Shown here piece after piece: positions 1,484-61,389 of a DNA stretch of 64,000 bases. Source of the DNA: a virus. Where the stretch lies: positions 1-64,000 of IMG/VR virus record IMGVR_UViG_3300044845_000779, one strand, 5' to 3'. Numbering within the stretch: position 1 is the stretch's first letter; each line of letters opens with the position of its first letter. A program made the position numbers and the translations under genes. Under the pieces are notes generated by a model. The model searched no databases. It saw nothing but the letters and a program-made list of their open reading frames with translations, and was not told the DNA's origin.

Positions 1484-3746
1484 TGCGTCCAAGGCCGGCG
1501 ACCTCTGGCTGCGCTATCAATACATCCGCGACAACGGACACCTCGACTACGTCGCCAAGGCGCGCAAGTGCGAGGACTTTTTCGCCGGCCTGCAGTGGGA
1601 AGCTGCAGACCTGTCGCTGCTCAAGCAGTACAAGCGCCCGGCACTCACCATCAACAAGATCATCTCGACCATCGCCAACGTGCTGGGCGAGCAGATCTTC
1701 AACCGCACCCAGATCGCTTTTCGTCCCGCCAAAGACGGCACCGAGGAGCTGGCCGGCACGCTCACGAAAGTGTTCATGCAGATCAGCGACAACAACCAGC
1801 TCGAGTGGGTGCGCTCGGACGTGTTCGCCGACGGCATCATCGGCTCGCGCGGCTTTTACGACGTGCGCCTGGGGTTTCGCGACAGCCTGGCCGGCGAGAT
1901 CGAGATCTCTCAGCTCAACCCCAAGAACGTGCTGATCGACACGGATGCGGACGAGTACGACCCCGACAAGTGGGGCGATGTGTTCATCACCAAGTGGATG
2001 AGCACCGACCACATCGCCGAGCTGTACAACAAGGCAGACGCCGAGGCGCTCAAGGGGGCCTCCGAGTCGTTCTGGCCCTACGGCTTTGACGGCATCGATC
2101 GCGACCGGGACCGCTTTGGCACGCCGCGCGCCGTGGCCTACAACCAGAGCCCGGCGATGAATCAGAACATGATGCGCCACGTGCGGGTGATCGAGCGCCA
2201 GCACCGCGAGAACCACCGCACCGAGCACTTTGCCAACGTGCGGCTGGGCGACTTGCGCCCCGTGCCCTCGAGTTGGGATCGGGAGCGGATCGCCGCCTAC
2301 ATGGCGGCAAATCCTGATCTGATCGTGATCAAGAAAATGGTGCCCCGCATTCGCTGGACGGTGGTGGCCGACAAGTACGTGCTGCACGACGACTGGAGCC
2401 CGTACAAGCACTTTACGGTGGTGCCGTTCTTCCCGTTTTTCAGGCGCGGGCGCACAGTCGGGCTGGTCGAGAACCTGCTCGGGCCGCAGGAGCTCCTGAA
2501 CAAGGTCTCCAGCCAGGAGCTGCACGTCGTCAACACTTCGGCCAACAGCGGCTGGAAGCTCAAGACCGGCGCGCTAAAGAACATGAACCTGGCCGAGCTC
2601 GAGGCGCGCGGCGCGCAGACCGGCCTGGTGCTGGAGCTGGACGACATCAACAGCGCCGAGAAGATTGCGCCCAACCAGGTCCCGACCGGCCTGGACCGGA
2701 TCTCGTACAAGGCCGAAGAGCACATCAAGACCATCTCGGGCGTCTCGGACTACCGCACCGGCAACGCCCGCGAGGACGTGGCTGCCAAGGCGGTCAAGGC
2801 CAACCAGGCGGCCAGCTCGGCCAACACCGCCAAGGTGATGGACAACTTGTTGCGCACCGACACGATCCTTGCGCGCAACGTGCTCGATCTGGTGCAGGAG
2901 TTCTACACCGAGGAGCGGGTCTTTAACATCGTCTCGGACCGCATGACCAACCAGACCGAGCAGGTGACGGTCAACCAGGTGCAGGAAGACGGCAGTCTGT
3001 TCAACGATCTGACGGTCGGCGAATACGCGGTGGTTGTGACCAACCAGCCCGAGCGCGACACCTTCGAGGACACCCAGTTCGAGCATGCGCTGCAGCTGCG
3101 CACCGAAGCGGGAGTGCAGATCCCCGACAAGTTCCTGATCAAGTCCAGCAAGCTCAAGGACAAGGCCGAGATCGTCAAGGGCATCGAGCAGGCTGAGCAA
3201 GACCCGATGCAGCAGCAGATGCGCGAGCTCGACATGCGCGGCAAGACCGCCGAGGTCTCAAAGATCGAGGCCGAGGTGGCCGAAAAGGTGGCCAATGCGA
3301 ACTTGAAGACCGCCGAGGCCCAGGCCCCCGACAACGGCCAGGCTGAGCTGGCGCTGAGCATGCGCAAGCTCGAGATGGAGCACGAGCTCAATCGCGAAAA
3401 AATGGAGCAGGAGTTTGCACTCCGGCGCGAGCAGATGACAGCCGACATTGAGCTCGCCCGCATGAAGGCCGAGGGCGAGCTTGCCATCAAGCGCGAAGCA
3501 TCCGAAGCGCAGATGGCGATCGCCGCGCAGGCCGCCGAAAAGCAGGCCGAGCTGGCCGACGCGCAAGCTGCCACGCAGTACGCGCAGGCCGCCTCGACCG
3601 CCAAGACCTCAGACGCAAAAACCGCCGCTATCAAATCCAAGCAAGAGATCGGCGAGCGCACCGCCGAGGAAGCGGCCAAAGCCGCCCGCGCGCAAGCCGC
3701 CGACCCCAAAGCCAAACCCAAACCCACCCCCACCCCCACCAAGTAA
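1473..3746 (+). CDS. Portal protein (P22-type)
   Basis: A 757-residue protein with the pattern of P22-type portals, the dodecameric ring at the capsid vertex through which DNA is packaged and ejected. Residues near 55-80 (KRPALTINKIISTIANVLGE) are the recognisable core motif, followed by ISQLNPKNVLIDTDADEYD and YRTGNAREDVAAKAVK typical of the family. From about residue 580 the chain becomes a charged, Ala/Glu/Lys-rich coiled coil, comparable to the long C-terminal barrel of P22 portal, ending in PKPTPTPTK. The start ATG 1473 lies within the end of the preceding gene. Position between terminase and scaffold supports the call. Confidence 0.9.
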   Translation: MPIDASKAGDLWLRYQYIRDNGHLDYVAKARKCEDFFAGLQWEAADLSLLKQYKRPALTINKIISTIANVLGEQIFNRTQIAFRPAKDGTEELAGTLTKVFMQISDNNQLEWVRSDVFADGIIGSRGFYDVRLGFRDSLAGEIEISQLNPKNVLIDTDADEYDPDKWGDVFITKWMSTDHIAELYNKADAEALKGASESFWPYGFDGIDRDRDRFGTPRAVAYNQSPAMNQNMMRHVRVIERQHRENHRTEHFANVRLGDLRPVPSSWDRERIAAYMAANPDLIVIKKMVPRIRWTVVADKYVLHDDWSPYKHFTVVPFFPFFRRGRTVGLVENLLGPQELLNKVSSQELHVVNTSANSGWKLKTGALKNMNLAELEARGAQTGLVLELDDINSAEKIAPNQVPTGLDRISYKAEEHIKTISGVSDYRTGNAREDVAAKAVKANQAASSANTAKVMDNLLRTDTILARNVLDLVQEFYTEERVFNIVSDRMTNQTEQVTVNQVQEDGSLFNDLTVGEYAVVVTNQPERDTFEDTQFEHALQLRTEAGVQIPDKFLIKSSKLKDKAEIVKGIEQAEQDPMQQQMRELDMRGKTAEVSKIEAEVAEKVANANLKTAEAQAPDNGQAELALSMRKLEMEHELNREKMEQEFALRREQMTADIELARMKAEGELAIKREASEAQMAIAAQAAEKQAELADAQAATQYAQAASTAKTSDAKTAAIKSKQEIGERTAEEAAKAARAQAADPKAKPKPTPTPTK

Positions 3747-3757
3747 AGGCCCTGCCA

Positions 3758-4732
3758 ATGCAGATCAAACCGAAGTGGTTCCCCCTGTTCGCCCCCGCTG
3801 GCGAAGAGTCTGCCGCCCTTGACCGGGGCGACAATTTCGTGGCCGACGACGACGAGCTCGACGACGCGCCCTCGGACACCCAACCCAACGACAAGCTAAC
3901 CGACGACGATGTCGATGCGGCCGGCACCCCGGCAAAAGACGCTGACGACGACGGCGAAGGCGAAGGCGAAGGCGGCGAAAAGCCTGCCAAACCCAAGATT
4001 CGCATCCCCAAAGAGCGGCTTGACCAGGAAATCCAGAAGCGACGCAATGCCGAGCAGCGCGCCGCTGAGCGCATCAACGAGCTTGAGCGCGAGCTTGCGA
4101 GCCGCACGAGCAGCGCCGACATCGCGCAGCTTGAGCAAGATGTGGCCGCACTCGACGACCAGTACGACGAAGCGATCGCTGACGGCGAGCGCGGCAAAGC
4201 CAAAGAGATCAAAGCGCAGATCCGCGTGCTTGAGCGCCAGATCCAGCGCGCCGAGACCGGTCTGGCCGCAGCCAACGCCAAGGTGGCGGCGGTGGCCGAG
4301 CTCAAATACGACATGGCGCTGAGCCAGGTCGAGCTCGACTATCCGGCGCTTAACCCGGACAGCGCCGAATTCGATCGCGACGCGACCGCAGAGGTGGCCG
4401 AGCTCATCGACAGCTTCAAGCTCAAGGGCATGGACCCGTCGGCTGCGCTCAGAAAGGCGGTCAAGTACGTGCTGGGCGCCCCCACGAAGGCGGCCGAAGA
4501 CAACCGCAACGTCGAGCGCGACGGACTGCGCGAAGCCAAGGCGAGCGAGGCACGCAGAAAAGCGGCCGACGCTATTGCGCGTACGCCGGCGAACCTGGCC
4601 AAGAGCGGCAAAGACTCTGACACCGCCGGCGGCGCGCTGCCTGACGCTCGCGCCGTGGCCAAGATGAGCCAGGACGAGTTCTCCAAGCTTGACGACACGA
4701 TGAAAGCCCGCCTGCGCGGCGACGACATCTGA
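3758..4732 (+). CDS. Putative scaffolding protein
   Basis: A 324-residue protein lying between portal and capsid, where phage scaffolds usually sit. The first 80 residues are acidic and low-complexity (DDDGEGEGEGGEKPAK), residues about 85-190 are a predicted coiled coil rich in Glu, Arg and Ala, and the C-terminus contains SQDEFSKLDDTMKARLRGDD. This layout matches scaffolds, which are acidic, helical and lost during maturation. No protease domain is visible. Identity rests on position and composition; I see no diagnostic scaffold motif. Confidence 0.65.
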   Translation: MQIKPKWFPLFAPAGEESAALDRGDNFVADDDELDDAPSDTQPNDKLTDDDVDAAGTPAKDADDDGEGEGEGGEKPAKPKIRIPKERLDQEIQKRRNAEQRAAERINELERELASRTSSADIAQLEQDVAALDDQYDEAIADGERGKAKEIKAQIRVLERQIQRAETGLAAANAKVAAVAELKYDMALSQVELDYPALNPDSAEFDRDATAEVAELIDSFKLKGMDPSAALRKAVKYVLGAPTKAAEDNRNVERDGLREAKASEARRKAADAIARTPANLAKSGKDSDTAGGALPDARAVAKMSQDEFSKLDDTMKARLRGDDI

Positions 4733-5118: not shown

Positions 5119-5513
5119 TCAGAACCTGCTCGAAGTGCAAGACCGACAAACCGCTAAACCGCGAGTTTTTCAGCCCCGATGCAGCCAAGCCCACGGGCTT
5201 TCACTCGTGGTGCAAGGCGTGCCGTGCAGGCCACCGGCGCTACACATCGAACGGCAAATTTCGCCACGCTGTGAGCGACAAACTGCTGGGCGTGCTGCGC
5301 GAATACGTCAAGACCTGCATGATCTGTAAGTCTTCCGAGGCGCTGGTCGTCGATCACGACCACGAAACCGGGCGCGTGCGCGGCATGCTGTGCCAGCACT
5401 GCAACCGAGGGCTTGGCCAGTTCAAGGATTCGCCCGAGATCATCAGGGCCGCCGAGCGCTATTTGAGCGAGAACGACAAGGCCGGACCAGAAGCAAAAAA
5501 AGGCCGCAGCTGA
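5115..5513 (+). CDS. Endonuclease VII-like HNH nuclease
   Basis: A 132-residue protein with start GTG 5115 overlapping the previous stop. It has the zinc-binding cysteines of the recombination endonuclease VII family (CSKC near residue 5, CKAC, CMIC, CQHC) around the catalytic segment [20 protein letters not shown]. In T4, endonuclease VII (gp49) cleaves Holliday junctions and other branched DNA so that replicated DNA can be packaged. A location between scaffold and capsid suits clearing branches during packaging, but free-standing homing HNH genes also invade such places. A role in resolving branches is inferred. Confidence 0.8.
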
Positions 5514-5519
5514 TTATTG

Positions 5520-5560
5520 TTGCGCCCTTGTATCTTAATGTCTTACAATCTGTCTTATCG
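5520..5560 (+). promoter_or_regulatory. Candidate promoter with TCT octamers, before the capsid gene
   Basis: TTGCGC (5520-5525) and TACAAT (5544-5549), 18 bases apart, form a plausible sigma-70 promoter. Overlapping it are TCT units at 5533, 5541, 5549 and 5553, the first three exactly 8 bases apart. The leader 5561-5680 contains a stem ATTCAG/CTGAAT (5563-5568 with 5578-5583) and ends with ATGAGGTCGCACA before the capsid ATG. Strong capsid expression would explain a dedicated promoter. Confidence 0.55.
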
Positions 5561-38140: not shown

Positions 38141-39175
38141 TTACAGCTGTATCAGGCCTACGCTTTTCTTGGTGTGGCCAGGCGCCAAGTGCGCATAAAT
38201 CTCGGTCATCAGGATAGTCGAATGGCCCAATAATTCCTGCACTTCGCGTAGGGATACTCCCGCCATGACCAGATGGGAAGCAAAAGTGTGGCGCAAAGAA
38301 TGAAGGTGGATTTCAGGCGGCAGCAGGGCTGCGTCGGCCTGGGCCCGGAACTTGGCAGTCAAGTAGTCCCTCGTCACACGGGGCAAGACGTAGCGCATGC
38401 CGCCAGTCAAAGCCCTGAGTGCATCAAGCGCTTCGCGCGCGCCGTCGTTGAGCGGCACGTCTCGAGACTTGCCCGACTTTGTGCGGGCCGTGGTGCGCGA
38501 GACGATCGAGATGAGCTCGCTTTGCACGTCGCCCCACTGCAGATTGAGAGCCTCAGTGCGGCGCATGCCAGTGTTGACATAGAGCTTCCAGATTGGGGCC
38601 CAATGCGGCTCAAGGGTTTGAGCGTGCAGATAAAGCGCCTCCATATGCGCTTTGGTCGCAAAAGTTGGCTTTACTTTGGCTGCACGCGGCAAATTAGGAA
38701 ACCGCGCAGTCGGTAACGGCGACACTTGGATTTTGCCCCAAGCCACTGCCTTATTGAGCATTGCGCGCAACGTGGCAATTTCGTTATTCGCCGCTGATGC
38801 CGCCACTTGCGTGCCGCGATTCAGCTTCCACATTTCGGCTTGTTGTAGCGGAATCGAATCGATTCGGTATTTGCCCAAACCCGGCACAATGACTTTCCTG
38901 ATTCGCTTTTCTACATCGTAGTGCGTGTCAGGAAAAGCCTGGGAATACCAAACAAGGTATTCCTCGGCAAATTCGGCAAGTGTTGGCGCTGCGGAAATAC
39001 GCAGCCGGTGCATTACCTGCACGTTGCCCGCCAGCTCGAGTTCTTTAGCAAGCCGAAATGTTTCGGCCTGCTTTTCGGACATCACTTTCGTTTTGCCGAG
39101 CGTTTTGCGGTGCTGCTTGCCGGCTTCATGCCACTGGAGAACCCAGGAAGCACTTCTAATACGTACGGTTGCCAT
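38141..39175 (-). CDS. int: Tyrosine integrase
   Basis: A 344-residue phage integrase. The N-terminus is a short arm-type DNA-binding region, residues 60-150 the core-binding domain (TLAEFAEEYLVWYSQAFPDT), and the C-terminus the catalytic domain. The catalytic set is visible: R205 in TGMRRTEALNLQW, K236 in TKSGKSRDVPL, H292 and R295 in HSLRHTFASH, H318 in LLGHS and the nucleophile Y327 in ILMTEIYAHL. It integrates and excises phage DNA at att sites. Start ATG 39175 has GAGGCGC upstream and lies inside the excisionase-like gene. Confidence 0.95.
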   Translation of the reverse strand: MATVRIRSASWVLQWHEAGKQHRKTLGKTKVMSEKQAETFRLAKELELAGNVQVMHRLRISAAPTLAEFAEEYLVWYSQAFPDTHYDVEKRIRKVIVPGLGKYRIDSIPLQQAEMWKLNRGTQVAASAANNEIATLRAMLNKAVAWGKIQVSPLPTARFPNLPRAAKVKPTFATKAHMEALYLHAQTLEPHWAPIWKLYVNTGMRRTEALNLQWGDVQSELISIVSRTTARTKSGKSRDVPLNDGAREALDALRALTGGMRYVLPRVTRDYLTAKFRAQADAALLPPEIHLHSLRHTFASHLVMAGVSLREVQELLGHSTILMTEIYAHLAPGHTKKSVGLIQL

Positions 39176-48535: not shown

Positions 48536-49282
48536 TTAAACTTGGGCGATTGGAATTGATTTCTTGTACGGGTTGTGCGGCGCTACTACGCCCACTTCGC
48601 AGTGGCCGGTGGCGTTCGGGGCATACGGGCACCACTTGCAGTTGAAGATACTGGGCCGGGCCACGAACTCAGTCTCGCTTGTCATCTTCTCGCCGCGTGC
48701 GTCATACCGCTCTCGATACCGCTCGATGTCAGCGCGCGTGAACTCAAAGCTCGTCATGTCGTTCTGGTCGGTGTACCAGAGCTCGGCGGTGATGATTTCC
48801 ATGCTCGGAAAGCGATCCATGGTTGCGATCGCATAGAGCTGGGTCTGCTCAGCGTGCTTGACCTCGTTACCGGCTTTCTTGCCGGTCTTATAGTCAATCA
48901 CGACTGCCTGAGTGTCAGATAGCCGCACCATGGCATCGAGCTTGACCCGGCACCACACCGTGCGGTCCATCCACCCCACTGGCATCCAGTCGCGGTTTAT
49001 TCCCCATTCGCCTTCGAGGGAGACTTGGCCGCTGGCGTACAAAGAGCGCAGATTTTCGAACTCGTCTTTGAAGTCTTTGAGTTCGGTAATGAGCTCGATG
49101 CCGCCTTTGACGAAGAGTTCTGCCGCTTCGTGGATGCGGGTTCCGCGATCGTTGGGGTGTTCAGTTTTGCCCGCAGGTAACGGGCGCTCTGGTTCAGGAA
49201 TACGGTCGACATAAGCAATCTTTGCCCGCAGCGGGCATTGTTCGAAGGTGGTGAGACGGGAGTACGACCAGGCTTTGATCAT
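48536..49282 (-). CDS. RecB/Cas4-like PD-(D/E)XK nuclease with Fe-S cysteines
   Basis: A 248-residue nuclease with start ATG 49282 (a longer frame extends upstream but lacks a ribosome site). IKAWSYSRLTTFEQCPLRAK holds C16 of the CPL motif, VVIDYKTGKKAG is the D-x-K catalytic core, and FNCKWCPYAPNATGHCEVG holds the three C-terminal cysteines of an iron-sulfur cluster. This is the AddB/Cas4-type exonuclease arrangement. It likely processes DNA ends in recombination with the SNF2-like helicase. No CRISPR array or other cas gene is present, so it is not a CRISPR component here. Confidence 0.85.
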   Translation of the reverse strand: MIKAWSYSRLTTFEQCPLRAKIAYVDRIPEPERPLPAGKTEHPNDRGTRIHEAAELFVKGGIELITELKDFKDEFENLRSLYASGQVSLEGEWGINRDWMPVGWMDRTVWCRVKLDAMVRLSDTQAVVIDYKTGKKAGNEVKHAEQTQLYAIATMDRFPSMEIITAELWYTDQNDMTSFEFTRADIERYRERYDARGEKMTSETEFVARPSIFNCKWCPYAPNATGHCEVGVVAPHNPYKKSIPIAQV

Positions 49283-49327
49283 GTGAGCGTGCTCTTCGTT
49301 TTGAAGGCTCTCATTCTCACACAAATC

Positions 49328-49353
49328 AGACAGAGTGTCGGTAGACTTTAAGA
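49328..49353 (-). promoter_or_regulatory. TCT repeat site upstream of the nuclease gene
   Basis: Read leftward, TCT triplets end at 49351, 49343, 49332 and 49328 (spacing 8, 11, 4) with units TCTTAAAG, TCTACCGA, TCTG, TCTGATTT. The 8-11 pattern and the TCTGTCTGATT string match the site at 13864-13904. It overlaps the stop of the upstream gene and precedes ATG 49282. Confidence 0.5.
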
Positions 49354-50181
49354 CTCTTGGGGCGAAAAATCGACCTGATAAGTCACTGCACCCATTGATA
49401 GCCGAAGCTGCTCTTTGTTCCTGTCGCGCTCGAGCCACCATTGCAAATACTCCGGTTGAGACATGCGGCGACGATGGCCGTATTGTCCATCGCGCTGTGC
49501 AAATGCGGCCAGCTTTGCAAAGTCTTGATTGGTCTCCAACGGCATGCAAATTTTGCGGCTTGCGTAATACGCATCACTCCACTCTTCAGGCGTGCGCATA
49601 TTCGGTTTTGGCAGATCGGCAAGCGCACCCATGTGCGCGCGAAACAGCGTGTCAGCTTTAATTTTTTCAAACCGTTCGCGGTATTCGCGCCGCTTGTCTT
49701 TGTCCCACACTCGCACGGGTACACGATCGACTGAACCCGCGATGTGACCGTGCTTGGGGTGCCAGATAAAGCGCATAGCACCAGGCGCTACAAGCTTGTA
49801 AGGCGTGCCATCCTGGTCAACCCAACCATAGCGGGTGTAGACCCAGCCAAGTTGTGCTTTTGAGGTGTTGCGCGAAAATTCCCAGCCGTTAGCCAAATCA
49901 CCCAGCAAACGGACAAACGACGGACTGGCGCAAGCTCCTGCTGGCGGCTTGAAATCAACACTGCCATCTCTGCGCACTATTGCAAGGGGAGGGTGCGGCG
50001 GACGTGTACCTGATTTGCGGTATGTGTACCAATCAGGGTAGATGTACAAATCGTCGACGTTGCTGATGCCCGGCCAAAGCACAAGCGAGTTGTGGCCCAC
50101 GCCGCGCATGTTGCGAAACAACTTTCCAGTGCGGCGGGAATCGAAAAAATCTTCAAGTTTTCGAAAGCTGAGATTTGACAT
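49348..50181 (-). CDS. Hypothetical protein, 277 residues
   Basis: Start ATG 50181 was chosen because the upstream frame lacks a ribosome site and overlaps the hairpin at 50211. The protein begins MSNLSFRKLEDFFDSRRTGK and has GVGHNSLVLWPGISNVDDLY near residue 30, then a basic, aromatic-rich body (YPDWYTYRKSGTRPPHPPL, YRERFEKIKADTLFRAHMG). It has no recognised domain, signal peptide or membrane segment. The high Arg/Trp/Tyr content suggests a nucleic-acid-binding or enzymatic protein. Its stop overlaps the TCT repeat site. Confidence 0.6.
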   Translation of the reverse strand: MSNLSFRKLEDFFDSRRTGKLFRNMRGVGHNSLVLWPGISNVDDLYIYPDWYTYRKSGTRPPHPPLAIVRRDGSVDFKPPAGACASPSFVRLLGDLANGWEFSRNTSKAQLGWVYTRYGWVDQDGTPYKLVAPGAMRFIWHPKHGHIAGSVDRVPVRVWDKDKRREYRERFEKIKADTLFRAHMGALADLPKPNMRTPEEWSDAYYASRKICMPLETNQDFAKLAAFAQRDGQYGHRRRMSQPEYLQWWLERDRNKEQLRLSMGAVTYQVDFSPQES

Positions 50182-55837: not shown

Positions 55838-58183
55838 TTATTTGAGGTCTTTCTGCGCTTGGGCGAGCCACCCTGACTGGTCCGGGTCGCTCAGATTCCA
55901 GCTAGGCTCGATTTCGATGCCGGTGACTTTCTTGTTCTGGCTGCTCGACCAGATAGCTTTCAGGCGCAGCTTGTGGTGGCCGAGGTACTTGGTGAACTTG
56001 TTGGGTGCGACCGGGATGTTCTCGCCGACCAGGTATCTGAATAGCGTGTGCAGGTCGTCGCGCGAGATCTTTGTGACGCCGTCGATCACGAATGAGCGGA
56101 TCAGGTCTCGATAAGCCAGAGTGAGCGCGTCGCGTGCGTTGACGGTGAAGGTGTTGTTCGATACCACCGGTGCGTTGGTGGGTAGCTGCTCGACAAACCA
56201 TTCCAGGTTGCCGCGCATCAGAGCTTGGGAAACCTCGTCCGCGGCTTGCGTGGAAGTGTCGATCAGGTCTTGCCGCGCGCGTGTGTGCAGGGCAGTCCGG
56301 GCGCGGGTCTCGTCTACGACGAGAGTCATCCAATAGCGGTACAGGTCGGGGACTTCCGCATCGAGCGTGTCCAACCATTGCTGACTTGGTACAGGCAGTC
56401 GTTTGGTCTGGTAGTCGCCCACATTGAACCGTCGGTCGTCACTTGGGACGTCCACCGGGTCGTGCATGTTGGAGGCGAAGATGAAGTTCGAGTAGTTGCG
56501 AACGCGCCGCGACTCGGAGTACATCGCGCGTGAGCTGATGTTGGGCTCGACCATGATGTTCTTGATCTTGGCCATGAGCATGCCGCCCTTGCGCGCGCTC
56601 GAGGTCTGGATCTCGTCCACGAAGACGATGAAGCGGTTTTCCATGTCAGCGGTGAAGTTTTCTTCGAGCTGCTCCATGCGCTTGACGGTCATCAGGTTTT
56701 CGAAGATCGGCAGCAGCACGCGGTTAACCAGCAGGCCTTTGCCTGTGCCCTGCACGCCGTGCCAGACCCATCCGGTGTAGGTGAGCTCGAGCCGTTGGCA
56801 GATGTAAGCCATCCAGTTGTGGAAGTGCTCGACGATCTCGGGCGTGTCGCCCAGCACGTTGGTGATGAGTTCTTGGCAGGTGGGTGGGGGCTCGTCGACT
56901 TGTACATAGTCCATCAACATGATTTTGGAAGGCGAGAAGGTGTTCACCACCCCGGTCTTGAAGTTGATGCGTGCGGGCTCATGCGGCATGAACTCCATGC
57001 GCATGTCAGGCACTGCATCGTTGAGCTCCAGGCCATAGCGTTTAGCGAAGTCCATGACCTGCGCGCGGCTGTTGGTGCGCTTGAGGTCGAGCTCGTCGAC
57101 TGCTTCGTCGTAGTAGCCGGTGAAGTAGCTCGAGGTGTTGAAGTCGCGAAAGGCGAGGTAGATCTTCTGGCTGTCAACGGCAGCGGTCTGTTGCAGCGAG
57201 CGGTAGTAGTCGGGTAGCAGCTCTTCGGTGCGGTAGTTGGGCTCGGATTTGAAGTTGAAGATGAACTCGGCGTTGTCCACTGGGTGGTAGTAGGCCCAGG
57301 AGTCGCCGTCGTTCAGGTTCAGGTACACGAATCCACGTTCTTCTTTGATGCCGGAGACGTACGCGTCGTCAGGCTTGTGCAGGTATTCCACGCCGGCCTT
57401 GATCTTGTACAGGCTTGCCCGGCGCTTGGGCACGTTGGCGGCCACGCGCAGCTCGTTCACGCGTGCGTCGATCAGTGGGCGCAGGGTGAGCGCGCTGGGT
57501 ACGGCCGGCGGCAGGGTGAAGGTCTCGGCTTGTTTTTGTACGTACGCGATGCGCACACCGGCGTACGGGTCGGTGATGTTGGTAAGCACCGGTGGGGCGA
57601 TGTAGATCAGTTTGTCGTTTTGGCACACCGAGACGTCCACCGGCCAGGTGGGTGAGTTCAGGGTTTTGGTGAGCGTCATGGCTGCGCGCAGGATGGGCGT
57701 GGCCAGGTTGAGGTTTTGCAGGTAGAGCTTGAGCTTGGCCGGCACTGTGGGCGTGTCCAGCAGGCAGAAGATGTGGGCCCGAAGCCCGGACTTGGTCGGG
57801 TCGATGCCGGCAGAGGCTGACCACTGCAAGACGTACGAGAGGTATCCCAGGCCGATTGCGGCCATGAAGTCGTCAGGGCTTGAGAAGGGTGCACCGTCCA
57901 GGTCGAACACCAGCAGGCAAGTCGGGGCGTTGGGGTCAGTTGAGCCTGCCCGTGATTCGTCGTGCAGGGCGCGCGAGGGGTTGCCTTTGAGCAGGCACAT
58001 GCCGGCGTTGCCTGCGGCGGTCAGCGCCTTGGCCAGGTCGGGCAAGGTGGCGACAGTCACGGTGGTGCTGGTGAAGGCCCAAGCACGGGGGTAGGAGGTC
58101 GAGGTCAGGGCGCCGGTTGCAGCGTCGCGTGTGAAGGACTTGGAAAGCGGGCCGTCGGATGAGGCGAGGAAGGTCAGTTCCAT
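55838..58183 (-). CDS. Helicase-primase, SF3/D5-like
   Basis: A 781-residue protein, start ATG 58183 (an upstream TTG is the edge of the frame). The N-terminal 330 residues include LLVFDLDGAPFSS and AGIDPTKSGLRAHIFCLLDT, typical of the primase-like domain of phage helicase-primases. The C-terminus has Walker A GVQGTGKG (about residue 470), Walker B FIVFVDEIQ (about 515) and SNFIFASNMHDPVDVPSDDR, the marks of a superfamily 3 / DUF5906-type helicase. It primes and unwinds at the origin, working with the family A polymerase. The AT-rich, hairpin-bearing stretch upstream (58230-58522) is a good origin candidate. Confidence 0.85.
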   Translation of the reverse strand: MELTFLASSDGPLSKSFTRDAATGALTSTSYPRAWAFTSTTVTVATLPDLAKALTAAGNAGMCLLKGNPSRALHDESRAGSTDPNAPTCLLVFDLDGAPFSSPDDFMAAIGLGYLSYVLQWSASAGIDPTKSGLRAHIFCLLDTPTVPAKLKLYLQNLNLATPILRAAMTLTKTLNSPTWPVDVSVCQNDKLIYIAPPVLTNITDPYAGVRIAYVQKQAETFTLPPAVPSALTLRPLIDARVNELRVAANVPKRRASLYKIKAGVEYLHKPDDAYVSGIKEERGFVYLNLNDGDSWAYYHPVDNAEFIFNFKSEPNYRTEELLPDYYRSLQQTAAVDSQKIYLAFRDFNTSSYFTGYYDEAVDELDLKRTNSRAQVMDFAKRYGLELNDAVPDMRMEFMPHEPARINFKTGVVNTFSPSKIMLMDYVQVDEPPPTCQELITNVLGDTPEIVEHFHNWMAYICQRLELTYTGWVWHGVQGTGKGLLVNRVLLPIFENLMTVKRMEQLEENFTADMENRFIVFVDEIQTSSARKGGMLMAKIKNIMVEPNISSRAMYSESRRVRNYSNFIFASNMHDPVDVPSDDRRFNVGDYQTKRLPVPSQQWLDTLDAEVPDLYRYWMTLVVDETRARTALHTRARQDLIDTSTQAADEVSQALMRGNLEWFVEQLPTNAPVVSNNTFTVNARDALTLAYRDLIRSFVIDGVTKISRDDLHTLFRYLVGENIPVAPNKFTKYLGHHKLRLKAIWSSSQNKKVTGIEIEPSWNLSDPDQSGWLAQAQKDLK

Positions 58184-58206
58184 GATTGGACCCAAGGTTG
58201 GGGATC

Positions 58207-58522: not shown

Positions 58523-59227
58523 TCACTGCCCGTCCCTGGCCTGCACCGGCTCAGCCACCGGCTCGGCCTGCTTTGCGGTCTTTTCTCTTGCAACTTCCCA
58601 CGCTAGCTTTGCAAGCGGCTTGGCGTCCATTTGCCCTGCCGCGAATGCACTATGAAAACCGTGGTTATCCCACCAATCTTCAAACGATTGAAAGTGCCAC
58701 GCCACCGGCTCGGCCTGCTGGAGTGCGGCGCGGAGTGCGGTGATCGTCGCGTCCTGAATCTTTAGCACGGACATCAATCGCTCGACCTCGCCGCCCATCG
58801 GCTCGGCCACCGGCTCAACCACCGGCTCGGCCTGCTGGGGTGCGGTTGTTGAGTAGAGAGGTAGCCAATAGGTAGCGTCCCAATCAGACCCTTTGGGGCT
58901 GTTAGTTTCTCGTCGCAATAGCCCTGTCTCTTTGTGCATCCACGCCACCGGCTCGGCCTGCTCTTTGTAAATGCTCGCCGGGTCAATTCGCTTGTCGCCT
59001 TGCATAATCCCAAGGCCCAACGCGAGTACGTCCTCAAATGTTTGAACCACCGGCTCGGCAATCCGATTCTCAATCTCTCTCCAATACTTCATTGCTGCAT
59101 CTCGACCCTTGAACCAAGTTTTGACCCGCCAGTCGCCTACCCCGTAAGGGCACACTGCGTCGCCGTCGCTGGCGCTGCGCTGCCCTTCTTGGTACACGCG
59201 CATTCTTTCTGCTGCATCTGGACTCAT
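58523..59227 (-). CDS. RMF-like domain fused to EPV-repeat protein
   Basis: A 234-residue protein with ATG 59227 overlapping the upstream stop (ATGA). Residues 8-45 (MRVYQEGQRSASDGDAVCPY then RVKTWFKGRDAA) match the pattern of ribosome modulation factor: a helix, C-P-Y, then W-x-x-G-x-x-A-x. The rest is built of variable segments separated by [Q]AEPV or AEPVA (eight copies), including the segments QAEPVAWMHKETGLLRRE and LPLYSTTAPQQAEPVVEPVA. The N-terminal half may bind ribosome or RNA; the repeat half is of unknown role. Confidence 0.6.
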   Translation of the reverse strand: MSPDAAERMRVYQEGQRSASDGDAVCPYGVGDWRVKTWFKGRDAAMKYWREIENRIAEPVVQTFEDVLALGLGIMQGDKRIDPASIYKEQAEPVAWMHKETGLLRRETNSPKGSDWDATYWLPLYSTTAPQQAEPVVEPVAEPMGGEVERLMSVLKIQDATITALRAALQQAEPVAWHFQSFEDWWDNHGFHSAFAAGQMDAKPLAKLAWEVAREKTAKQAEPVAEPVQARDGQ

Positions 59228-59994
59228 TTGTTTTCTCCTTTCACCGGCTCGGCCTGCTCTTTGTCAACTTTCGGTGCTGACTTTGTCAACGCTTTGTCAA
59301 CCGGCTCGGGCTGCGGGGGTGGGCGTGTGTAGAGCACACGCTCTTGGTATGGCCCGCCCCCGTCTTCGTGGTCGGCGTGTCCGTCATACCATTCCGCGCA
59401 ATGCCGCTTGCGGAACTGCACAACCGGCTCGGCCTGCTGCTTCAGCCAATTAATCTCGACGAGACACACATCCAACTTGCTTAGCTCGGCTTCTGCGGCA
59501 TCAAAAAACGGCTCGGCATCAAGCCAATCCTCCCCTGTCATTGCTAAAGAACAGAAGATCCGCAGTCGCTCCAGCGCATTGCCAGTGTAAGTCTCGACGT
59601 CTTCAGCGATCTCGTTGTAGCGGGTCAGTGCAGACACCGGCTCGGCCTGCTCTTTGTCAACTTTCGGTGCTGACTTTGTCAACGCTTTGTCAACCGGCTC
59701 GGGCTGCTGCGGATCCACGTAATCCCACACCCAGTCAACCCACGCCACTGGCTCGGCCTGCTTCCTCTTGCAATAACCGCGACAGTCACACGACTCATGC
59801 CCGCACGACACCGGCTCGGCCTGCACCGGCTCGGCCTGCTGGGGTGTGACCAGCCCAAGACGTAAAGCCTGCCGCAGAACTTCTTCTACATCACGAGCGC
59901 CGATGCCGCGCCAGACCTCGCATTTATCACCAACGCGCTCGGCTACCGTTTGCAGCCTTTCTTCTGGGAAATTGGCCTGCACCGGCTCGGCCTG
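58538..59994 (-). repeat. Dispersed GCCGAGCCGGT-type repeats coding AEPV
   Basis: At least 15 copies of a 14-17 base sequence (on the + strand ACCGGCTCGGCCTGC or close variants) are scattered irregularly through two neighbouring genes, always in the same reading frame so that they code Q-A-E-P-V. Spacing varies from 0 to about 170 bases. One pair forms a perfect 73-bp direct duplication (59242-59314 and 59635-59707). Confidence 0.85.
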
Positions 59995-60216
59995 TCGCTG
60001 GGAAAGAGCGACGACCTGCTTTGGCGCAGCGCGAAGTGCTGCTTCAAGCAAAGGACGAATTGGCTCGCGGCATGCCATATCGTCGTGCGCGAGATACGCT
60101 GCATTGACCATCTCATCAGTGATTTGCTCGGGCCAGAGCGGTATCGGCGTTGGCCGTTGCAGCATCCAGTACTCAAGTTCAAGGCATCTGAAGTAGTTCA
60201 AACTGTCGGCTCTCAT
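59224..60216 (-). CDS. EPV-repeat protein with cysteine cluster
   Basis: A 330-residue protein starting at ATG 60216, which overlaps the upstream stop (ATGA). The first 75 residues are an ordered helical domain (SLNYFRCLELEYWMLQRPTP, ITDEMVNAAYLAHDDMA). After that come variable segments joined by AEPV or PEPV (nine copies). One segment, CGHESCDCRGYC, has four cysteines and a histidine, a potential zinc site. The VDKALTKSAPKVDKEQAEPV unit is present twice, from the 73-bp duplication. Function unknown. Confidence 0.6.
   Translation of the reverse strand: MRADSLNYFRCLELEYWMLQRPTPIPLWPEQITDEMVNAAYLAHDDMACREPIRPLLEAALRAAPKQVVALSQRQAEPVQANFPEERLQTVAERVGDKCEVWRGIGARDVEEVLRQALRLGLVTPQQAEPVQAEPVSCGHESCDCRGYCKRKQAEPVAWVDWVWDYVDPQQPEPVDKALTKSAPKVDKEQAEPVSALTRYNEIAEDVETYTGNALERLRIFCSLAMTGEDWLDAEPFFDAAEAELSKLDVCLVEINWLKQQAEPVVQFRKRHCAEWYDGHADHEDGGGPYQERVLYTRPPPQPEPVDKALTKSAPKVDKEQAEPVKGENK
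59242..59314. repeat. Perfect 73-bp direct repeat, copy 1 (copy 2 at 59635-59707)
   Basis: All 73 bases of 59242-59314 recur at 59635-59707, 393 bases apart, in the same reading frame of the same gene. The flanking bases differ. The unit begins and ends in the 14-17 base AEPV repeat, suggesting duplication by recombination between those short repeats. Confidence 0.9.
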
Positions 60217-60344
60217 TGCGGTATCTCGATAAGTGTGGGTTTGCACTCGCGTTTCACGGCAAAATCTTCAACAAAATCAGCAGCGACGTAGATCACAAAC
60301 GCGAACAGCAGCAGAAAATATGAAATGTTGTCGATGATTCTCAT
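60213..60344 (-). CDS. Small membrane protein, 43 residues
   Basis: ATG 60344 overlaps the upstream stop (ATGA) and the TGA overlaps ATG 60216 (ATGA). It reads MRIIDNISYFLLLFAFVIYV then AADFVEDFAVKRECKP, one membrane segment with a charged C-terminus. The exact overlap on both sides indicates translational coupling and supports a real gene. Role unknown; perhaps it anchors or couples the EPV-repeat protein encoded next. Confidence 0.55.
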   Translation of the reverse strand: MRIIDNISYFLLLFAFVIYVAADFVEDFAVKRECKPTLIEIPQ

Positions 60345-61003
60345 AGCTTAATCACTTGTTCAGCCTGCTTGGCGTTTCTCTCCCGCAATCTTTCTTCGAC
60401 CAGCAACGCAACGTCCGCTGCGTATTGCCCGTACGGGGCCAGCTCGTCCATGTCTGCGTTGTCCAGCCCAACCCACGCCACTGGCTTGTCCTGTTCTTTG
60501 TAAACTTCCGGCTGGCTGGTTGTTAACCTATCGGCCACAGGAACAGGCTGTTCCAGTACGTGTGCAGCCATTGACAGGGCTTCAATGTCGGTGGCGTCCC
60601 ATTCACCATCAAATTTGGCGATAAGTTGGCGCAGTTGTTGCGCCACCGCTGCCGCTCGCAGGTCAGTTTGTTGTGGCTTGTTTGCGGCTTCGATTTGGTC
60701 GATTCTGGCCGCGGCGCGGATGACGGTTTGAGTGCAGTTATCGCCCCAGGCGAGCCATTGAAATCTGTTAGTGACGACTGCGCCTACAGCCCAGCCGTTT
60801 GTGCTTGGTTTACCCGTAACTGTCATGGTGTGCTTTGCTATCAAACGCTGCGCTTTGAGGTCATCTGCTTCGTTTTGCTGCCAGCGCGACAGAGCGGTTT
60901 CTAGTTTGATAATCATGGCTGTGCGCCCCCCGATGCTTGCGTGGCGCAAGTCGTCTTTGATCCACTTCAGCACGTCTAGGGCGGCTTGCTCGAGTTCGGT
61001 CAT
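60341..61003 (-). CDS. Hypothetical protein with PVAW module
   Basis: A 220-residue protein, start ATG 61003 overlapping the upstream stop (ATGA). Residues 1-100 are helical (MTELEQAALDVLKWIKDDLR, HASIGGRTAMIIKLETALSR). Near the C-terminus is YKEQDKPVAWVGLDNADMDE, clearly related to the EQAEPVAWM modules of the next two genes downstream. The C-terminus ends AKQAEQVIKL. It is the first of three adjacent genes that share this module, and thus the probable source or recipient of shuffling. Function unknown. Confidence 0.55.
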   Translation of the reverse strand: MTELEQAALDVLKWIKDDLRHASIGGRTAMIIKLETALSRWQQNEADDLKAQRLIAKHTMTVTGKPSTNGWAVGAVVTNRFQWLAWGDNCTQTVIRAAARIDQIEAANKPQQTDLRAAAVAQQLRQLIAKFDGEWDATDIEALSMAAHVLEQPVPVADRLTTSQPEVYKEQDKPVAWVGLDNADMDELAPYGQYAADVALLVEERLRERNAKQAEQVIKL

Positions 61004-61389
61004 GCTGGCTCTCCGCTGTCTGTTGATTTCATGGCTGCGCGCGCGATGTCTGAGATCGATCGGCGCAAAGCGGTGGCAGTCATCTCGTCCAGTGCGCGGC
61101 TGTTGCACTTGCCGGGCCCAGTGGTGCCGTATTCAGCCAGCAGCGCAATTTGCTTGAGTGCTTGCTCTTGCGCTTCCACAGGCTGCTTGGTGTACACCTT
61201 GTCGCCTTTTTTGAGCTCGCTTGATCTGAACCCCACCATGTCACCGATCTTGGTTGTGATGGTGTATTCCGCTGTGGTGTGGATGTGCTGGGCCCAGGCG
61301 GCCAGTTGTGCGCGCAGCTCATCGCGTTGGGCGAGTACGCATTCAGGCCTTGTGCAGTAATAACTGCAGCTGTGAATTGAGGTTGTCAT
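61000..61389 (-). CDS. Hypothetical protein, 129 residues
   Basis: Starts at ATG 61389 and overlaps the next gene by ATGA. The opening MTTSIHSCSYYCTRPECVLA has three cysteines in CxxxC-x4-C, with RDELRAQLAAWAQHIHTTAE following. A short ordered part (YTITTKIGDMVGFRSSELKK) and a helical C-terminus come next. The N-terminal cysteine cluster could bind zinc. No family is recognised. Confidence 0.5.
   Translation of the reverse strand: MTTSIHSCSYYCTRPECVLAQRDELRAQLAAWAQHIHTTAEYTITTKIGDMVGFRSSELKKGDKVYTKQPVEAQEQALKQIALLAEYGTTGPGKCNSRALDEMTATALRRSISDIARAAMKSTDSGEPA

Follow-up and report, generated by a model that had tools for sequence, protein, structure and literature searches.

A translated 15-bp repeat as a likely joint for the exchange of protein cassettes among phages

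Why do two neighboring genes of an uncultured bacterial virus contain the same short sequence many times over, always in the same reading frame? The question is raised by the window analyzed here, a stretch of 64,000 nucleotides comprising bases 1 to 64000 of a 68,260-base virus record. A sequence-only reading had counted about 17 copies of [QAP]EP[VM] in two adjacent, coupled genes, noted a related PVAW module in a third gene, and suggested a possible system for diversifying early proteins. Judging from sequence comparisons, this sequence seems to act as a natural joint where pieces of viral proteins are separated, exchanged, and put together again without loss of frame. The explanation that best accounts for the evidence overall, and that is probably correct, is that these genes are in-frame cassette arrays exchanged at QAEPV joints, with a pool of cassettes common to unrelated phages.

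The two repeat-bearing (array) genes and two further genes discussed below are as follows.

59224-60216, minus strand: array gene 2, 330 aa from the ATG at 60216 (the open reading frame list gives a GTG start at 60246)
58523-59227, minus strand: array gene 1, 234 aa
60341-61108, minus strand: third gene, with a degenerate PVAW joint (KEQDKPVAW) and a B-like segment at 60479-60556
61000-61389, minus strand: fourth gene, N terminus SIHSCSYYCTRPECVLAQRDEL

Array genes 1 and 2 share an ATGA overlap on the minus strand (59224-59227), so that "coupled" is a reasonable description, and are located directly upstream of a primase-helicase gene (55838-58195; DUF5906, phrog_24712). The earlier count holds exactly: there are 17 EP[VM] copies, 9 in gene 2 and 8 in gene 1, all of them in codon phase and in direct orientation, and the PVAW module is present in the third gene. 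In gene 2, the N-terminal segment MRADSLNYFRCLE is followed by QANFPEE..., cassettes D (SCGHESC), G (WVWDYV), B (DKALT), and S (SALTRYN), the segment VQFRKRH...LYTRPPPQ, a second B, and the tail KGENK. Gene 1 consists of a weakly Rmf/CrpP-like N terminus, VQTFEDV..., AWMHKETG...LYSTTAPQQ, cassette T (GGEVERL), AWHFQSFEDWW..., and a tail. The repeat copies and named cassettes are arranged as follows.

59980-59994, minus strand: repeat copy, exact match to CAGGCCGAGCCGGTG
59824-59838, minus strand: repeat copy, exact
59809-59823, minus strand: repeat copy, exact, abutting the previous one
59758-59808, minus strand: cassette D (SCGHESCDCRGYCKRKQ), common core with DNA 100% identical in phage fragments L154 and L164
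59746-59760, minus strand: repeat copy, 1 mismatch
59704-59745, minus strand: cassette G (AWVDWVWDYVDPQQ), core 97% identical in L154
59692-59706, minus strand: repeat copy reading PEPV, 2 mismatches
59647-59691, minus strand: cassette B, copy 1 (DKALTKSAPKVDKEQ), present also in L154, L063, L126, and L182/L183
59635-59649, minus strand: repeat copy, exact
59434-59634, minus strand: cassette S (SALTRYN...WLKQQ), core 95% identical in L154, predicted helical hairpin
59422-59436, minus strand: repeat copy, 1 mismatch
59299-59313, minus strand: repeat copy reading PEPV, 2 mismatches
59254-59298, minus strand: cassette B, copy 2
59242-59256, minus strand: repeat copy, exact
59048-59059, minus strand: repeat copy, AEPV core
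58946-58960, minus strand: repeat copy, exact
58796-58834, minus strand: three repeat copies end to end (QAEPV-VEPV-AEPM)
58715-58795, minus strand: cassette T (GGEVERLMSVL...), found in L154 in one gene with B, S, G, and D
58703-58717, minus strand: repeat copy, exact
58544-58570, minus strand: two repeat copies end to end (QAEPV-AEPV)

The B-like segment of the third gene is 62% identical to the duplicated cassette B and perhaps represents an older copy without the DNA sequence of the joint. The fourth gene has no joint after its N-terminal segment; in L063 and L149, genes that do have a joint begin with this segment as their N-terminal cassette.

The repeat is confined to this locus. The 15-mer CAGGCCGAGCCGGTG is found in 9 exact and 2 one-mismatch copies, all in gene orientation and all within positions 58556 to 59994; elsewhere in the whole 68,260-base record, there is no copy with up to 1 mismatch. 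Allowing up to 3 mismatches, the window contains 28 matches, compared with 4.6 expected and no more than 11 in any of 100 shuffles, and genes 1 and 2 contain no out-of-phase copy with up to 2 mismatches. Codon choice within the window joints is nearly fixed, with CAG in 13 of 13 cases, GCC in 12 of 13, GAG in 16 of 16, CCG in 15 of 16, and GTG in 13 of 16, whereas the other genes of this phage use GCC, GAG, and CCG in 38%, 60%, and 46% of cases, respectively. The naive product of the five codon P values, for the window only, is about 1e-16. The joint codons are thus too uniform to be explained by codon usage, which argues that the repeat is conserved as DNA. When all arrays are pooled, GCC is found in 48 of 50 joints compared with 28% outside them, a count biased by the fact that the arrays outside the window were found through a 16-mer of the repeat's DNA; only the codon test in the window is free of this search bias.

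This uniformity bears on an account in which QAEPV is kept for the protein, as a flexible hinge or a docking peptide, with the segments brought together by illegitimate recombination and in-frame selection and the DNA likeness reflecting codon preference. Such an account draws on the position of the linker between segments that resemble small domains, on the wide recurrence of PVAW and similar protein motifs with varied neighbors, and on the standing of illegitimate recombination as the usual account of phage mosaicism (PMC3029335). However, the linker codons are near-invariant, unlike the codons for these residues at other places in the array genes, and the breakpoints described below fall on the repeat itself. 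We therefore consider this account unlikely. In another reading, the repeats are protein-binding sites, such as replication iterons or operators, embedded in coding sequence, their in-frame spacing being a by-product; in its favor, many direct copies are packed into a short stretch that immediately precedes the primase-helicase gene. This reading is opposed by the irregular spacing (15 to 213 bp, with 1 to 10 copies per array gene), by the single codon phase shared by every copy with up to 2 mismatches in the 19 genes examined, which a binding site does not require, and by the absence of the repeats from relatives with the same primase, and we leave it a very slight probability.

The reading of the repeat as an exchange joint can be followed into other phages. 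The 16-mer scan yielded at least 120 stretches, and in 103 of the 134 matches listed, no open frame on the same strand is longer than the one that reads QAEPV. Among these listed matches, multi-cassette arrays are found chiefly in L154 and L164 and then in L189, L126, L063, and L182/L183; all of the compared arrays lie on metagenome contig fragments. The cassettes of the window recur in unrelated phage fragments with about 85 to 100% DNA identity, in other orders and in other genes. Thus, window gene 2 has the arrangement D-G-B-S-x-B, with T in gene 1, and a single gene of L154 has the arrangement H-B-S-T-G-D, where H is the WHLSGYGME cassette (T and S were split by eye, as automatic clustering had lumped them with other helical N termini). 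The earlier reading would have fallen had the order and number of segments been constant in all relatives; the opposite is found, which favors shuffling. In its core DNA, cassette D of the window is 100% identical to its L154 counterpart, G 97%, S 95%, T 91%, and B 86%; this divergence of 0 to 14% differs per cassette and indicates that the cassettes have separate histories. Outside the cassettes, L154 and the window show no DNA similarity. The dN/dS ratio of the cassettes in this pair is about 0.48, reflecting only mild protein-level constraint. In several of these phages, short tandem repeats reading GYGDGYG or RLRLRR are found between or beside the array genes (in L154 near 5479-5553, in L164 around 4400-4660, in L126 at 3116-3458, and in L183 near the array).

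Other cassettes display the same mobility. Cassette E is found in four contexts (genes L154a, L164a, and L164b and fragment L189), cassette H in L154 gene b and L164 gene a with a 100% identical core, and cassette I in L164a and L126b, and a 466-bp block that includes E, J, and K and extends to the gene end is 99.6% identical between L164b and L189. The H core and E-J-K are 100% identical, compared with 84 to 94% for neighboring genes of the same contigs (about 90% for genes near the 466-bp block of L164 and L189); these cassettes are therefore younger than their flanks. Long intact blocks such as E-J-K, together with the further early genes shared around the arrays of L154, L164, and L189, might suggest that exchange operates on whole blocks at the scale of genes, that differences inside the blocks go back to duplications and deletions of long ago, and that the repeats have no continuing part in it. 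This is very unlikely, given that single cassettes such as H and D are common to phages at 97 to 100% identity with differing neighbors on one or both sides and that cassette ages differ.

If cassettes are joined at the repeats, the edges of similarity should fall there, and they do. After merging, 45 of the 54 alignment ends are located within 9 bp of a repeat, whereas random positions give a mean of 14.5 such ends (standard deviation, 3.2; maximum, 26 in 3,000 draws); the alignment ends are partly dependent on one another. Without merging, 66% of the ends are within 6 bp of a repeat, compared with 21%. Inside the window, cassette B and its flanking joints are duplicated over 73 bp with 100% identity, with repeats at both bounds. 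Most likely, portable domains of early proteins are joined at this repeat by recombination over short homology. Since every sequence involved is a metagenome contig, wrong joins made at the repeats during assembly would be another source of permuted arrays, an extremely improbable one: such arrays are found in contigs from several separate metagenomes, two of these contigs (L182 and L183) agree at 99.8% over 2.3 kb, and the repeats are far below usual read lengths.

The scan for cassette D gave matches in L154 and L164 only. A scan of genome contigs for the DKALT cassette gave none, and neither did a scan for two QQAEPV joints 40 to 70 bp apart. DNA and protein searches of the array genes against annotated phages and plasmids produced no match, the related-locus search from gene 2 gave no confirmed relative, and the one from the L154 array gene returned only loci already found.

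The arrays are not a family trait of the window phage. Its primase-helicase is about 39% identical to those of Pseudomonas phages KPP25 and phiR18 and 49% identical to that of its nearest uncultured relative, L009, and none of the 44 records with the same primase contains an array (two contain one single near-match each). In L009, the genes on both sides are syntenic with those of the window, yet only about 0.8 kb separates them, compared with about 3.4 kb in the window. The absence from these relatives and the shorter gap identify the arrays as an acquired accessory block, most likely obtained from the pool of unrelated phages. What the earlier reading took for a property of this phage is a common pool of cassettes that, for the most part, circulates in other phages. 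The window also encodes a tyrosine integrase (38141-39175; phrog_1, E = 7.5e-60), about 19 kb from the array; this phage with KPP25-like replication genes may be temperate.

In the proposed mechanism, short coding segments of about 15 to 75 aa are linked by the 15-bp in-frame linker CAG GCC GAG CCG GTG (QAEPV), and any two linker copies could recombine, within a gene, between neighboring genes, or between co-infecting phages or prophages, so that whole cassettes would be deleted, duplicated, or exchanged. Because all linker copies share codon phase and orientation, such exchange keeps the reading frame. The cassette pool is common to unrelated, probably temperate phages. Short-homology annealing is the presumed enzymatic route, and we infer both the continuing exchange and the direction of transfer. 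Genes recognized by sequence as encoding an ERF-type annealing protein and a YqaJ-like exonuclease are found near the arrays in fragments with enough flank, including L154 and L126, and the ERF assignment is backed by tblastn matches to annotated ERF genes. Searches of the window record for ERF gave no match; a predicted phage exonuclease is encoded at 48536-49549 (phrog_69). Compared with the RecA pathway, Erf and its exonuclease are far better at recombining both identical and diverged sequences, and Rad52-like phage annealing proteins, Erf included, act much more readily on short or diverged stretches (PMC3945230). Deletions between short direct repeats arise without RecA (PMC5426353). The minimal efficient pairing lengths quoted are 23 to 27 bp for Red-beta and 31 to 34 bp for RecA (PMC3945230), and the joint has 15 bp, or up to about 24 bp with shared neighbors. 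Being below or at the lower edge of these lengths, single joints would recombine rarely, and exchange may be slow; joints that stand side by side, such as QAEPVQAEPV, may play a part here.

Of the diversification idea, one part therefore stands: between phages, cassettes are gained, lost, duplicated, and reordered, with boundaries at the repeats and no loss of frame. A dedicated, programmed, or ongoing system does not follow, with joints of only 15 to 24 bp and no dedicated recombinase found. A bolder version, in which the 15-bp QAEPV sequence serves as an exchange standard across unrelated phages, any phage can acquire small protein domains from any other by annealing at the joint, and new chains of accessory early proteins are continuously produced within populations, is put forward tentatively and is on balance somewhat doubtful.

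Searches of the arrays against Pfam, PHROG, and NCBIfam show no family that fits. Residues 1 to 56 of gene 1 (59060-59227) give a weak match to the Rmf/CrpP fold (NF041887; E = 0.0023, 17.3 bits with a cutoff of 40); if this resemblance is real, one cassette might be a ribosome-modulation-factor-like domain. A PDB sequence search with gene 1 returned chance-level matches only. Single-sequence AlphaFold models are of poor quality (mean pLDDT, 43 and 50), and in the gene 2 model only the S cassette exceeds 70 (block means of about 60 to 84 over residues 191 to 270, with the rest below 50); the fold predicted for it is a helical hairpin. Most array genes of the other phages start with a common LEKAARQAL...ALRAAL segment, which the N terminus of window gene 2 does not resemble; helices are predicted there with low confidence. 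Many single-joint proteins have the form helix-QAEPVAW...PLYTAPP and belong to no Pfam family. The array products are probably accessory early proteins, with an N-terminal helical segment and exchangeable domains, comparable to lambda Ea22. They would have an early or host-modulating role; early expression is no more than suggested by their location ahead of the primase-helicase gene. If exchange is frequent, it would be a natural route to new combinations of accessory early proteins and would help account for the many small phage early proteins that have no family.

How the arrays relate to known systems can be judged from several comparisons. Shufflons also have short repeats between interchangeable coding segments, with inverted sites and an adjacent recombinase. 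In contrast, the array repeats are all direct and translated, with no inversion, and no recombinase is recognized beside the array, the integrase being distant; a site-specific shufflon was rejected on these grounds. Protein fragments are exchanged between distant phages in an ongoing process (PMC10684548, Nat Commun 2023). That survey of domain shuffling stresses receptor-binding proteins, endolysins, and replication proteins, and a search of its text turned up no mention of linkers, whereas the arrays concern unannotated proteins with a visible DNA joint. A literature search in which few subscription journals were covered found no description of such a joint.

The nearest comparison is with mosaic early accessory proteins. 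Ea22 combines an N-terminal helical part with exchangeable C-terminal domains, among them the "portable domain" DUF551 (PMC10834534). Lambda Ea22 and the variants of it in Stx phages (Ead/Ea22, IPR025153; DUF551, PF04448) may have in common with the arrays a helical N terminus followed by exchangeable domains. Neither Ead/Ea22 nor DUF551 gives a match to window genes 1 and 2, L154b, L164a, L164b, or L189. In unrelated phages (L093, 2623-3447; L127, 7145-7513), DUF551 comes after the very same QAEPV joint, and the arrays can for this reason be regarded as a chain version of such proteins. They differ from Ea22 in having many cassettes and up to nine joints per gene, a joint conserved as DNA, and cassettes permuted inside the chain, whereas Ea22 swaps only at the C terminus.

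In the classical boundary-sequence model, the conserved sequences lie between genes, whereas the boundary in the arrays lies inside genes, is coding and in frame, and is many times repeated. That model places homologous recombination in the short conserved sequences that separate modules (PMC3029335), and here the breakpoints coincide with the repeat and the repeat is conserved as DNA. Phage mosaicism is usually put down to illegitimate recombination because joints are invisible at most boundaries. The array joint can be seen, is translated in frame, and is present in many copies, and it thereby opens the boundary-sequence model to tests on individual protein domains.
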